From Phycisphaeraceae bacterium (GTDB taxonomy: Bacteria; Planctomycetota; Phycisphaerae; Phycisphaerales; UBA1924), in NCBI GenBank assembly GCA_019636565.1, contig JAHBXG010000002.1:62001-126000 (forward strand): 64,000 nt of DNA, in the 5' to 3' direction. Below, piece after piece: positions 42,084 through 48,773 of the stretch; position 1 is the stretch's first letter; each line of letters opens with the position of its first letter. Both the position numbers and the translations under genes were made by a program. The notes beneath the pieces were generated by a model. The model saw only the letters and a program-made list of their open reading frames with translations. It ran no database searches and was not told the origin of the DNA.

Positions 42084-42797
42084 TCAGTTGCGACGACGAC
42101 GGCCGGCGACGAGACCAGCCAGGCCGACCAGGGCCAAGCTGCCGGGCGCCGGGACTTCGGCGTTGAACTGCACATTGTCGACGCGGTTGTTTCCACCCTG
42201 ATTCGTCGCACCATCAAAGGTCATACGAATGTACAGGTTGGCCTTGCCGTAGACGTCGGCTGCGCCGAAGTTCACCGTCTGCAAAGCAAACGAGCCCAAG
42301 CCCGTCACCGTCGTCAGATTCGTGAAATTCACGCCGTCGGTCGAGTACGAAATGGCCTGATCGGTAAAGCCGGTGCTCGTGCGCTGCGCGGCGTAGGTCA
42401 AAACCAGCGCCGAAGTGAAGCCGGTGGTGCTGATGTTGAACTGAATCCACTTGCCGTTGTTGGTCACGCCGCTGTTCACGCCGTTGCCAGCGCGCATCGC
42501 CAACGACCCACCGCTCGGATCACCGCCGAGTGCGTTGATCGTGGTGCCGCCGAACGTGCCGATGTCACCGGTGTTCTGAGCAGCGGTGCCGGCGACCGTG
42601 TTGATCGAAAAATTCGTTGTGATGTTGCCCGCACCCGAGTTCGTGCCCCAGGGATAGGCATCGTCCATCGTGCCCAAACCGCCGCTCGTGCCACCGGTGC
42701 TGTTGTTGAAATTCCAGTACGCAACCAAGTCAGCGTTCGCCGTGGAAGCAATCGCCGCACCCGCCGTGATGGCGAGCGCAAGTACAGAAATCTTCAT
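42084..42797 (-). CDS. Secreted PEP-CTERM-like protein
   Basis: A 237-residue protein with a signal peptide (cleavage after STANA, residue about 22), a beta-rich body and a tail reading VPAPGSLALVGLAGLVA before RRRR. The start of the mature region, DLVAYWNFNN, recalls the VLAHYGFDN of the neighbour at 41047. Both share an AAQRT-S/G-TG segment, a 'YS-x-(N/D)G-x-(N/D)F' segment and an N-x-R-(F/V)DN strand before the tail. They are therefore tandem paralogues. The fold resembles concanavalin-like lectin domains (inference). The ATG follows AGGAGG. Confidence 0.87.
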   Translation of the reverse strand: MKISVLALAITAGAAIASTANADLVAYWNFNNSTGGTSGGLGTMDDAYPWGTNSGAGNITTNFSINTVAGTAAQNTGDIGTFGGTTINALGGDPSGGSLAMRAGNGVNSGVTNNGKWIQFNISTTGFTSALVLTYAAQRTSTGFTDQAISYSTDGVNFTNLTTVTGLGSFALQTVNFGAADVYGKANLYIRMTFDGATNQGGNNRVDNVQFNAEVPAPGSLALVGLAGLVAGRRRRN

Positions 42798-44058: not shown

Positions 44059-45315
44059 GTGCCGCGTCCAAAACCCAGGAATGCGGCGCTCGATCCCGCA
44101 CCAACCTGGCTAAAGACTCTGAACGTGATCGCCTTGGTGATTCTGGTGGGTTGGATTCTTTACGACGCGCTCGGCCGCAATGTCTTCGGAAGCACTTCCT
44201 GGCCTCAGTCGGTCGTGGACTATCAGATCCTCTACGAGCATGGCCACCGGATCGCGGTGCGCTTGCGGTACGACCCGACGCAGATTTTTCCCTACGCGCC
44301 ACCGGCGGCACTCATGTTCGCGCTGACGGCGTTGCCTCCGTTCGCTGTCGCTGCGGGAGTCTGGCTTGCAATTCTGACGGCCTCGGCGATTGGCGTGTTT
44401 GTGCTGGGGACGGATCTGGTCGGGCTTCGCGGAAACGCTGCACGCTGGATCGTCGCGTTGCTCACGTACGTGGTGACGAACAACTACTTCCAATGGGATC
44501 TGCGATCGGTCAATTGCAATTCGGTCTACGCCGTCCTTCTGGTGGGCGCAATGTTGTGCGTGGCGCGAAGTCGCAACACATGGGGCGGAACACTTCTCGC
44601 GGCGAGTATTGCCTTGAAGTTGTACCCGGTTCTGGCATTGCCGTATTTGCTATGGATCAAGAAATGGCGGGCTGCGTTCGCGACGATCGCGTGCTTGCTC
44701 GCGTTCTTTGTGATCGCGCCGCTGCTGTACGCCGGTCCGAATGGTTTCGTGCAGCTTTACCGGTCCTGGTTGGAGCAGTTGCGTGTCGCGACTGCGACGG
44801 ATCTGAAGGATCATCCGATCCTCATTTCAATTCCGCACGGCCTCGCAAAGGTACTCGGAGCGGATTCGCAAGCAGCGGCGTGGATCGCGAGCGGTGCGAC
44901 CGTCGCGTGGGTAGGCGTTGTCGGACTCTGTCTTCTCAGCGGCGGCCTGCGACGGAAAGGCGTGCGCACCGGATGGGACCTGTGCGTGGATGCTTTTGCG
45001 CTTGTGCTGTTGCCGATCGTGGTGAGCCCGTATCTGGAGTCGTACCACGTCGTCGTGGCGGCACCGCCCATTCTCGCGCTGCTGGCGTACGGGGTGCTCA
45101 GGTCGAGCGATCTACGACGACTGACGATCGCGGTTCTTGTGGTGCTGGCGGGCTGGGGACTGCTGTACGCGCTTGGAAAATGGAAACTGCGCGGGCTGGG
45201 AGTGCTCGCGCAAATGAGCCTGGTCTTCCTCGCTCTTGCAGCTGCGCGCATTGATATCAGGCGGCAAGAAAGGCGAGCAAGCACGGCACACCGAGGAGCG
45301 CCGGTATTGACCTAG
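44059..45315 (+). CDS. Family 87 (DUF2029) mannosyltransferase-like membrane protein
   Basis: A 418-residue protein with about ten to eleven transmembrane helices. Family marks are the early periplasmic loop VVDYQILYEHGHR, the acidic and aromatic segment FPYAPPAALMF, ASIALKLYPVLALPYLLWIKKW and VVSPYLESYHVVV. GT87 enzymes use polyprenyl-phosphate-linked sugars on the outer face of the inner membrane. The substrate is unknown. The gene converges with argH, and the two stop codons share the same CTAG. Confidence 0.88.
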   Translation: MPRPKPRNAALDPAPTWLKTLNVIALVILVGWILYDALGRNVFGSTSWPQSVVDYQILYEHGHRIAVRLRYDPTQIFPYAPPAALMFALTALPPFAVAAGVWLAILTASAIGVFVLGTDLVGLRGNAARWIVALLTYVVTNNYFQWDLRSVNCNSVYAVLLVGAMLCVARSRNTWGGTLLAASIALKLYPVLALPYLLWIKKWRAAFATIACLLAFFVIAPLLYAGPNGFVQLYRSWLEQLRVATATDLKDHPILISIPHGLAKVLGADSQAAAWIASGATVAWVGVVGLCLLSGGLRRKGVRTGWDLCVDAFALVLLPIVVSPYLESYHVVVAAPPILALLAYGVLRSSDLRRLTIAVLVVLAGWGLLYALGKWKLRGLGVLAQMSLVFLALAAARIDIRRQERRASTAHRGAPVLT

Positions 45316-46685
45316 CCCAGCCGCACCCGAGCCTGCAATATCGCGTCGGCGACGGCTTTGGGCCCGGTGCCACCGGGGATTTCTCGGCGGGCCAGCCCCG
45401 TCTCCAGTTCGAGTGACTTGAAGACCCCGGCATCGATGCGTTTGTCGATCGATTGCAGTTCGGCCAGGGGCAGATCCTCCAACCGCTTCGATTTGTCAAT
45501 CGCGTGACGAACCAGCTTGCCGACGATGTCGTGCGCATCTCGGAACGGAATCCCCTTGCCGACCAGATAGTCGGCGAGTTCAGTCGCGTTGGCGTAGCCG
45601 CCGAGTGCGGAGTTGCGGGCACAGTCTTCCCGAACTTTCAACGTATCGAGCACGCGAACCAGCACCCGCAGGCACATCGAAAGCTGCTGCATCGAGTCGA
45701 TCAGCGGTTCCTTGTCCTCCTGCAAATCCTTGTTGTACGCAAGCGGAAGACCTTTCACGGTCATCGCGAGTGAGGCGAACGCACCGAAGATGCGGCCCGC
45801 TTTGCCCCGAATCAGTTCGCAGGCATCGGGATTCTTCTTCTGCGGCATGAGCGAACTGCCGCTGCTGACGCTGTCGTGCATTTCGACGATGGCGAATTCC
45901 TGCGAGGCGAAGAGGATGAGGTCCTCGGCGAGTCGCGAGAGGTGTAAGGCCGCGATGGAATTGGCGGAAAGCGTTTCAAGCACGAAATCGCGGTCGCTCG
46001 TGGCATCGAGGCTGTTGCGGGTGGGCGCATCGAAGCCAAGGTCCTTGGCAATCTGCTCGCGATCGACTTGATACGTGGTGCCCGCGAGAGCGCCAGAGCC
46101 GAGCGGAGACAGATTCACCCGCTTTCTCGCATCCAGCAACCGTGCCGCATCACGCTCCAGCATTTCCTGATAGGCGAGCGCCCAGTGCGCGAAGAGAATC
46201 GGCTGCGCACGCTGCATGTGCGTGTAGCCGGAAGTGACGATTGACTTCGTGCACTCCGCGAGATCGATCAGTGCCCGTCTCGCTTCCTTCATCTCCAAGA
46301 GGCGAGCGTCGATCTGGGCTCGCGCGTAGAGCCGGAAGTCGGTGGCAACCTGGTCGTTGCGAGAGCGTCCGGTGTGCAGCTTCTTGCCAAGATCTCCCAC
46401 CGCCTCAATCAGGCGGCGTTCGATGTACGAGTGAATGTCCTCGTCGGACGACGAAAGCGGAAGAGCGGGAGCATTTGCGATTTCAGATTTCAGACTCGAG
46501 AGGGCGGACGAGAGCTTTGCGAGTTCCTCGGCGTTCAGTACACCCGCGCGATGAATCGCCTTCGCCCACGCAATCGAGCCCTCAATGTCCTGCAGCGCGA
46601 GCGCGGCATCCACCGGCAGCGAGTCGTTGAACTGCTTGAAGAGTTCATCGGGTTTGGTTTCGAAGCGTCCGCCCCAGAGAGCCAT
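45312..46685 (-). CDS. argH: Argininosuccinate lyase
   Basis: A 457-residue fumarase/aspartase superfamily enzyme. It cleaves argininosuccinate to arginine and fumarate in the last step of arginine synthesis. Landmarks are MALWGGRFETKPDELF at the start, DEDIHSYIE, LHTGRSRNDQVATDFRLY, SGYTHMQRAQPI and the signature SSLMPQKKNPDACELIRGKAG-type loop with the catalytic Ser. The start is the ATG of MALWGG, behind GAAAGG. It is separated from argG by about 870 bp of repeats, so it probably has its own promoter. Confidence 0.96.
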   Translation of the reverse strand: MALWGGRFETKPDELFKQFNDSLPVDAALALQDIEGSIAWAKAIHRAGVLNAEELAKLSSALSSLKSEIANAPALPLSSSDEDIHSYIERRLIEAVGDLGKKLHTGRSRNDQVATDFRLYARAQIDARLLEMKEARRALIDLAECTKSIVTSGYTHMQRAQPILFAHWALAYQEMLERDAARLLDARKRVNLSPLGSGALAGTTYQVDREQIAKDLGFDAPTRNSLDATSDRDFVLETLSANSIAALHLSRLAEDLILFASQEFAIVEMHDSVSSGSSLMPQKKNPDACELIRGKAGRIFGAFASLAMTVKGLPLAYNKDLQEDKEPLIDSMQQLSMCLRVLVRVLDTLKVREDCARNSALGGYANATELADYLVGKGIPFRDAHDIVGKLVRHAIDKSKRLEDLPLAELQSIDKRIDAGVFKSLELETGLARREIPGGTGPKAVADAILQARVRLG

Positions 46686-46806
46686 GCGAGACCTTTCAAA
46701 GCAGTTTCTAGACCAAGGGCTACCAAGCGCCACAGAGAAATCAGGGAGGGAAGACTAGCAATCAACCGGCTCGCCGCGTTCTGCGATTGCGATCAGCAAA
46801 ATCGAC

Positions 46807-46850
46807 GACACCCCGGAGGCATTGGCGTTGGCCAACGCGTCCGGGGTGTC
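46807..46850 (-). repeat. Hairpin repeat, copy 1, terminator-like on the minus strand
   Basis: Eleven-bp perfect outer stem (gacaccccgga / tccggggtgtc) with a second inner palindrome around cgttggccaacg. Read leftward it is followed by a weak T-run (gtcgattttgc). A near-copy is at 47247-47290. Both are flanked on the right by ATTTGGAGG/GTTTGGAGA and GA repeats, so the unit is longer than the hairpin itself. Confidence 0.8.
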
Positions 46851-46851
46851 A

Positions 46852-47060
46852 TTTGGAGGGGAGGAGAGAGAGTTCGGATTGCGAATCGGCGTCAGACCCG
46901 TGTAAGGCGTGGCGCCCGGAGGAGAGGAGAGAGAGTTCGGTTTTCAAGTCGGCGTCAGCCCGGTTGAGGCGAGGCGCCAAGGGAGAGGAGAGAGAGGCTT
47001 TTGGTTCAATCGGCGTCAGGCCCGTGCAAGGCATGCCGCCTGGAGGAGAGAGAGGAGAGG
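46852..47060. repeat. Three-unit tandem repeat of about 62 bp with GA-rich linkers
   Basis: Three copies of ggcgtcag...ggcgcc-like blocks at 46888-46916, 46951-46978 and 47012-47040, at periods of 63 and 61 bp. Between them run ggagaggagagagag tracts. Each block can fold on itself (ggcg at the left pairs with cgcc or cgcc-like at the right), and several of the differences between copies keep the pairing. No protein-coding reading is convincing. Confidence 0.75.
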
Positions 47061-47246
47061 CGAGGAGAGGAGAAGTTCTTGATTCGGTTGTCATTGGCGA
47101 GTCTTTGTCACCCGCCAACAGAGTTGTCGGCGTGAAGGCAAACCTTGCAGAGAGCCCGAACTTTTTTTCGTTCGGCATTGCAGCCGTGTTCGCGTCGGAA
47201 CCGGGCGACGACAGACAACCCGCAGAAACACCGGCTCAAAAACAAC

Positions 47247-47290
47247 GACACCTCGGATGCATTGGTCGAAACCAACGCGTCCGGGGTGCC
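47247..47290 (-). repeat. Hairpin repeat, copy 2, terminator-like on the minus strand
   Basis: Same element as 46807-46850. The outer stem gacacctcgga / tccggggtgcc holds nine Watson-Crick pairs, one G-U and one mismatch, and the inner stem ttgg/ccaa has loop tcgaaa. Read leftward it is followed by gttgtttttg, which makes it a plausible terminator for argG, 260 bp upstream. Confidence 0.78.
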
Positions 47291-47552
47291 GTTTGGAGAG
47301 GAGAGAGATCTGAGACGAACGAACTTGAAAGTCTTTCCGCTGACACCACTCCATACGAGCGCTCGTGGCCGGGTGTTCGCCCGATCACACACGTTCTTTG
47401 GCCGTCCTGGGGTCGATTCTTGAAGCAGGGCCTGGAAACCACGAACGAAGTACGACCCCAGGCACGAAAGCCGCGCAAGCACAAGACCACACGCGTCGCT
47501 ACCGGAATCGACGCGATCGCGATGAATGGACTTCAGCCTGTCTCGAATTCTT

Positions 47553-48773
47553 CTACTTTGCAAGTCCCCGCTGCTTGAGCGCCGCAATGCGCTCCGGCAG
47601 GCTCAGCAGCTTGATAAACCCGCCCGCGTCTTTGTGCTCGTAGATCTCGCCCTTCTCGAAGGTCACAACCTTCTCAGAATAGAGCGAGTTCGGGCTCTTG
47701 CGGCGGATGGTCGTTGCCACGCCCTTGTATAGACGCACCACGATCTCGCCGGTCAATCTCTCGCTCGACTTCTGGATTCCCGCCCAGAGGGTCTCGCGAT
47801 ATGGCGTGAACCAACGGCCGTTGTAGACAGCTTCAGAGAACCACAGGGCCAGGTGCTCTTTGAAGTGGCGGGTTTCTCGATCCTGCACGAGTTCTTCGAG
47901 GCCCTTGATGGCCTCGACGAGGATCGTGCCGCCCGGGGTCTCGTAAATGCCGCGGGACTTCATGCCGACGAGGCGGTTCTCAACGAGATCAACGCGGCCA
48001 ACGCCGTGGATGCCGCCGATGCCGTTCAGCTTTTCCACGATCTGCCACGCCTGCATCTTCTGACCGTTGAGCGCAACCGGCCGCCCGGCCTCAAAGGAGA
48101 TCGTGACTTCCTCAGCCTTATCAGGCGCCTTCTCCGGCGAAGCGGTGAGCATGTAGCAATCTTCAGGCGGGGCATTCCAAGGGTCTTCGATGCTGCCGCC
48201 CTCGTGGGAGATGTGCCAGAGGTTGCGATCGCGCGAGTAGATCTTGGTTGCGCTCGCGGTGGTCGGAATGTTGCGAGCCTTCAGGTAATCGAGCATCGCC
48301 AGGCGACCGGTGAGGTTCCAACTGTCCATGCGCCAAGGGGCGATGATCTCCATCTCCGGCGCCAGCGCGGCATACGCCGACTCAAACCGAACCTGGTCGT
48401 TGCCCTTGCCGGTGCAGCCGTGAGCGAGCGCGGTGCAGCCGAACTTCCGGGCGGCTTCGACCTGCGCCTTGGCCAGGATCGGGCGGGCCATCGCGGTGCC
48501 GAGGAGATATCGACCTTCGTAGAGCGACCCGGCCATCACGCAGGGCATGACGAAGTCGTCGATGAATTCCTTCTTGAGATCGACAACGACGCAGTCTTTC
48601 GCGCCGGATTCCTTGGCCTTCTTTTCGACGCCGACGAGTTCGTCGGAGCCCTGACCGACGTCACCGACGACGCCGTAGACCTCGCAGTCCATGTTCTCTT
48701 TGAGCCAGGGGATGATGACCGAGGTGTCGAGGCCGCCGGAGTAGGCGATGGCGATTTTCTTGGTGTTGGGCAT
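47553..48773 (-). CDS. argG: Argininosuccinate synthase
   Basis: A 406-residue ATP-dependent ligase joining citrulline and aspartate. The P-loop-like IAYSGGLDTSVIIPWL opens the chain. Later marks are LAHGCTGKGNDQVRFE, RDRNLWHISHEGG and the substrate-binding GRVDLVENRLVGMKSRGIYETPGG-type stretch. Length is normal. It lies in the arginine block, read leftward after argF, with a 221-bp gap that holds a long inverted repeat. A terminator-like hairpin is downstream, so argG may end a transcript. The rest of the ornithine-to-arginine route flanks it. Confidence 0.97.
   Translation of the reverse strand: MPNTKKIAIAYSGGLDTSVIIPWLKENMDCEVYGVVGDVGQGSDELVGVEKKAKESGAKDCVVVDLKKEFIDDFVMPCVMAGSLYEGRYLLGTAMARPILAKAQVEAARKFGCTALAHGCTGKGNDQVRFESAYAALAPEMEIIAPWRMDSWNLTGRLAMLDYLKARNIPTTASATKIYSRDRNLWHISHEGGSIEDPWNAPPEDCYMLTASPEKAPDKAEEVTISFEAGRPVALNGQKMQAWQIVEKLNGIGGIHGVGRVDLVENRLVGMKSRGIYETPGGTILVEAIKGLEELVQDRETRHFKEHLALWFSEAVYNGRWFTPYRETLWAGIQKSSERLTGEIVVRLYKGVATTIRRKSPNSLYSEKVVTFEKGEIYEHKDAGGFIKLLSLPERIAALKQRGLAK

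Follow-up and report, generated by a model that had tools for sequence, protein, structure and literature searches.

In the window, the whole 64,000-nucleotide stretch of DNA from an uncultured planctomycete that was analysed, the gap between argG and argH holds a genuine candidate small-RNA locus that is specific to its lineage and contains two terminators. On balance, the element in this gap is probably a lineage-specific tandem pair of non-coding transcription units lying on the argG/argH strand, and its anatomy and conservation suggest that the two units may be separately transcribed small RNAs. Both argG (47553..48773) and argH (45312..46685) are located on the minus strand, as identified by open reading frame and tblastn. 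Between the stop of argG (47553) and the ATG of argH (46685) lie ~867 bp, in line with the ~870 bp given in a preliminary description of this DNA, and the gap is filled by hairpins, a tandem array, and GA tracts. Two 44-bp hairpins (46807-46850 and 47246-47291), the GA tracts, and a three-unit array between the hairpins, all reported in that description, are confirmed here. The two hairpin copies share 81% identity across 67 nt (46797-46863 versus 47237-47303), and the array units are 63 and 61 bp apart. If the proposed reading is true, the locus would offer a case for studying the origin of small RNAs with variable numbers of CU-rich pairing units, their growth through duplication of units, and their action in the absence of Hfq, and it would show that a new RNA locus is able to split the arginine operon.

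The two terminators and their strand are well supported. The distal terminator (46797..46850, minus strand) is composed of the hairpin at 46807-46850 and a U tract at 46797-46802, and would form the 3' end of the proposed long RNA. The proximal terminator (47237..47291, minus strand) consists of the hairpin at 47246-47291 and the U tract CGUUGUUUUUG; a copy of it is found in four species, and the two without it have a different minus-strand terminator behind argG. In the hairpin consensus, derived from 10 copies of six species, five of the 20 pairs show compensatory double changes, and a slightly different structure with 19 pairs scores far above slid controls. One-sided changes are strongly biased toward the minus strand: plus-strand columns contain A/C exchanges, corresponding to G-U on the minus strand, in 19 alignment cells and G/T exchanges in two, counted as cells and not as independent events. 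The earlier observation that copy differences mostly keep pairing thus holds for the minus-strand reading of the hairpins. Both strands fold more stably than shuffled sequences, with z of -4.6 for the minus strand and -3.0 for the plus strand.

The stable G+C-rich stem, conserved by pairing, is followed directly at its 3' side by a U tract on the same strand. In most copies UCGUUUUUG begins two to four nucleotides past the stem, and the minus strand reads GUCGUUUUUG or CGUUGUUUUUG there; the tract is weaker in copy 1 of G000 and copy 2 of G002. The T-rich stretches previously noticed in the leftward direction are real and conserved, with GUCGAUUUUG and CGUUGUUUUUG in the window and AAAAACGAC on the plus strand of relatives. 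Moreover, the hairpins are positioned behind transcribed genes, with argG upstream of the element and related matches behind open frames and tRNAs. A covariance model of the 44-bp hairpin (R1), a step proposed in the preliminary description, was built and searched in 61 family genomes, where it retrieves gene-end terminators of sister genera. Of the 13 places inspected beyond the genus, 12 hold a hairpin that has a U-rich tail and stands behind an open frame or immediately downstream of tRNA-Gly or tRNA-Thr; the R1 model includes the U tract, but not the location behind genes. At two loci of the sister genera (L125 and L135), tRNA-Gly and tRNA-Thr genes are directly followed by hairpins with a GUCGUUUUUGG-like tail, and the hairpin with a GUCGUUUUUGG tail is apparently a terminator type common in the family. 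Because of the hairpin covariation, the G-U exchanges, the conserved U tract, and the R1 matches behind genes, the earlier suggestion that the hairpins end transcription in the argG direction is well supported from sequence, and their assignment as minus-strand intrinsic terminators is the firmest part of the analysis.

On the minus strand, the array and the GA tracts appear as hairpins and CU linkers and resemble the main part of a non-coding RNA in its own right, a reading absent from the preliminary description. In six species the same order is found: a pair of conserved blocks, a 5' hairpin, an A-rich box, and a CU tract, after which one to four modules lead to the distal terminator. The proposed long RNA of the window (46797..47118, ~322 nt) is predicted to start near 47118 with a 5' hairpin (UUGGCGGGU..ACUCGCCAA, 47094..47118), the stem of which is retained in all six species with changed sequence. 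This hairpin is followed by linker 3 (47041..47093), which contains a UGACAACCGAA box and the longest CU tract, and by module hairpin 3 (47012..47040). Linker 2 (46979..47011) with its A-rich box and CU tract then leads to module hairpin 2 (46951..46978), and linker 1 (46917..46950), containing a GACUUGAAAACCGAA box and CUCUCUCUCCUCUCCUCC, to module hairpin 1 (46888..46916). Linker A (46851..46887), again an A-rich box with a CU tract (the GA tract of the plus strand), connects the last module to the distal terminator. The CU tracts are predicted to be unpaired in all six species (0.83-0.93, against 0.32-0.42 elsewhere), and the linkers harbor 3-17 copies of CCUCC. The array has three units in the window, four in G006 (the fourth degenerate) and G007, three in G003, two in G004, and one in G002, and the proposed long RNA measures 184-392 nt in relatives. 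A coding reading was rejected: although each strand has long open frames, none of them spans the element across species, and most of the spacings between units (58-72) are not divisible by three.

The modules indicate the strand less clearly than the hairpins. Their stems vary little, and exchanges outside the fifth pair favour the minus strand, whereas in 11 of 17 modules the fifth position of the stem pairs as U-G when read on the plus strand and is a C-A mismatch on the minus strand. A plus-strand reading was first favoured on this pair and was dropped on the terminator evidence. Read on the plus strand, the element could be an RNA whose numerous GGA motifs titrate CsrA, in the manner of CsrB or RsmZ. 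It carries 7-26 GGA per element, and CsrA is encoded in all eight genus genomes, with two genes in seven and one in the least complete; the two species lacking the element, however, have CsrA as well. In addition, the hairpins and the U tract indicate the minus strand, no plus-strand promoter and no conserved plus-strand terminator were found in the element, ANGGA occurs only 0-2 times per element on the plus strand instead of as many exposed copies, and the GA tracts are less open (0.49-0.64). The element is thus probably not a plus-strand CsrA sponge, and we give this reading little credence.

The minus-strand pair of units preferred here also includes a proposed short RNA (47237..47347, ~111 nt), conserved in four species, which carries a GUCAGCGGAAAGAC motif, a CU tract, and the proximal terminator and is preceded by GAAC-N17-CGTAT. 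Conserved blocks at fixed spacing precede each unit. The block pair TGCAAGGTT-N9-GCCGRCAACTCT (47121..47149, minus strand) is located in front of the long unit in six species, with a divergent spacer and a deviating second block in G003, and may act as a promoter, although it does not fit the sigma-70 consensus. The GAAC-N17-CGTAT blocks of the short unit (47351..47377, minus strand) have identical spacing in the four species. No sigma-70 promoter was found on either strand of the element, and the promoters of both units are uncertain. For an ECF-like GAAC-N16/17-CGTA pattern, an apparent enrichment upstream of genes in an initial sample did not recur in a held-out one. A possible short plus-strand helix, GCARGG..CCUUGC near 47130-47150, is in our judgement better read as the minus-strand promoter-like blocks. 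The whole region might instead be only a reinforced termination zone, in which the terminators together with CU-rich, G-poor Rho-loading (rut) tracts insulate argG from argH and no separate RNA function exists. Both terminators are supported, and rut sites for Rho loading should be unpaired, as the CU tracts are predicted to be. This explanation, which we regard as rather unlikely, leaves the conserved hairpins with the repeated A-rich box, the promoter-like blocks at fixed spacing, and the changes of module number by whole units unexplained.

The element is restricted to one clade. The preliminary description had set a search for further copies in the genome and its relatives as a test that could refute it; five sister species carry the element, and no further copy was found in the window's own genome. 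By BLASTN, it is present in six of the eight genus species examined, as a single copy per genome, at about 70-87% identity across species. Flanking argG and argH are found in five of them, and the contig of G007 stops before argH. The two species without the element (G001 and G005) have less than 50 bp from argG to argH and the most diverged ArgG (90%) within the genus. Searches for the module, both by exact pattern and by covariance model, did not find the element in 155 further family genomes (163 including the genus). The module model matched G122 (E 3e-7) within a coding sequence, which was taken as chance, and its other matches outside the genus, in the 163 genomes, are weak only. A DNA-pattern search returned four genus members together with eight lone matches in unrelated phyla, the latter also regarded as chance. 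No Rfam covariance model matches the element at E up to 1, and a limited literature search turned up no small RNAs of the genus. The GA tracts have few matches at other places, the best of which is within a coding region. A dispersed repeat was rejected on the absence of copies elsewhere in the genome. The narrow distribution and variable array copy number would also suit a functionless remnant of a dead repeat or mobile element, yet the compensatory changes and the blocks conserved between species at this level of identity, as well as the single locus without dispersed copies, make such an origin hardly credible. In G002 and G007 (L011 and L009), the interval between argG and the short unit contains several hundred extra bases with open frames, which suggests that other sequences have also been inserted into the gap. 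Elsewhere in the window, the minus strand at 42084-42797 encodes a PEP-CTERM-like protein that begins with a signal sequence and has VPAPGSLALVGLAGLVAGRRRRN at its C terminus.

The element is located upstream of argH on the same strand and ends in a terminator, an arrangement that could also be a cis-acting argH leader or attenuator with the distal terminator as its switch. We consider this distinctly improbable. No Rfam riboswitch or T-box matches, no competing antiterminator was noticed (without a dedicated search), and the argG and argH start regions are not favoured as pairing targets of the CU linkers (ranks 255 and 211 of 286). Moreover, argH possesses its own TNCTANNNT promoter-like box between the distal terminator and its start in all six species. 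The earlier idea that the hairpins process an argG-argH leader likewise finds no support: the element is closed by the distal terminator ahead of argH, which has the box described above, and argG directly adjoins argH in the two species that lack the element. In addition, three species (G003, G004, and G006) have a further terminator close behind argG.

Under the preferred reading as two tandem non-coding RNAs, the proximal unit would yield a short RNA of ~110 nt, the terminator of which would also halt argG read-through. The distal unit would yield a modular RNA composed of the 5' hairpin, one to four repeats of hairpin, GAUUGAAAACCGAA-like box, and unpaired CU tract, and the terminator. Its CU linkers, with their 3-17 CCUCC, may pair in trans with purine-rich ribosome-binding sites without Hfq. 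Shine-Dalgarno-like sequences precede ~32% of predicted starts, compared with 15% in controls, which makes anti-Shine-Dalgarno pairing possible. Across the start regions of 286 genes, the linkers pair no better than with coding controls (p 0.46), and this mechanism, tentatively the likeliest one, is thus a best guess and not a result. Hfq was not detected in the genus genomes (G000-G007). The broader picture of a modular, copy-number-variable regulatory RNA with several anti-Shine-Dalgarno sites per molecule in an Hfq-less planctomycete is, in our view, possible but somewhat doubtful.

Several known systems resemble parts of the element. Intrinsic terminators of the family likewise consist of a hairpin with a UYGUUGUUUUUG-like tail behind genes and tRNAs, whereas the copies in the element are longer and occur twice, on either side of a modular RNA. 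CsrB and RsmZ carry a repeated short motif between hairpins, as the element does when read on the plus strand; its strand evidence, however, favours the minus strand, and ANGGA is nearly absent. RepG of Helicobacter pylori pairs via a C/U-rich loop. This loop is single and its target is known, whereas the element has several linkers and no known target. RepG, a small RNA, pairs with an mRNA leader at a variable G-repeat (PMC8295292). The alpha-r14 or cuckoo RNAs of Alphaproteobacteria (NfeR1, CcsR1-4) share with the element several hairpins, repeated unpaired pyrimidine anti-Shine-Dalgarno motifs, and a terminator at the end (PMC10746234, PMC10253847). Their three hairpins each bear an identical CCUCCUCCC motif, and these motifs are used redundantly at ribosome-binding sites (PMC10746234). 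In these RNAs the identical CCUCCUCCC lies in unpaired regions of the hairpins, whereas the element contains CU repeats of varying length in the linkers between hairpins; it also belongs to another phylum, has no known sequence homology to them, and is found in a genus without detected Hfq. The element is thus not an alpha-r14 or cuckoo member, since the motif, its position, and the phylum differ, but by analogy it would work most like these RNAs.
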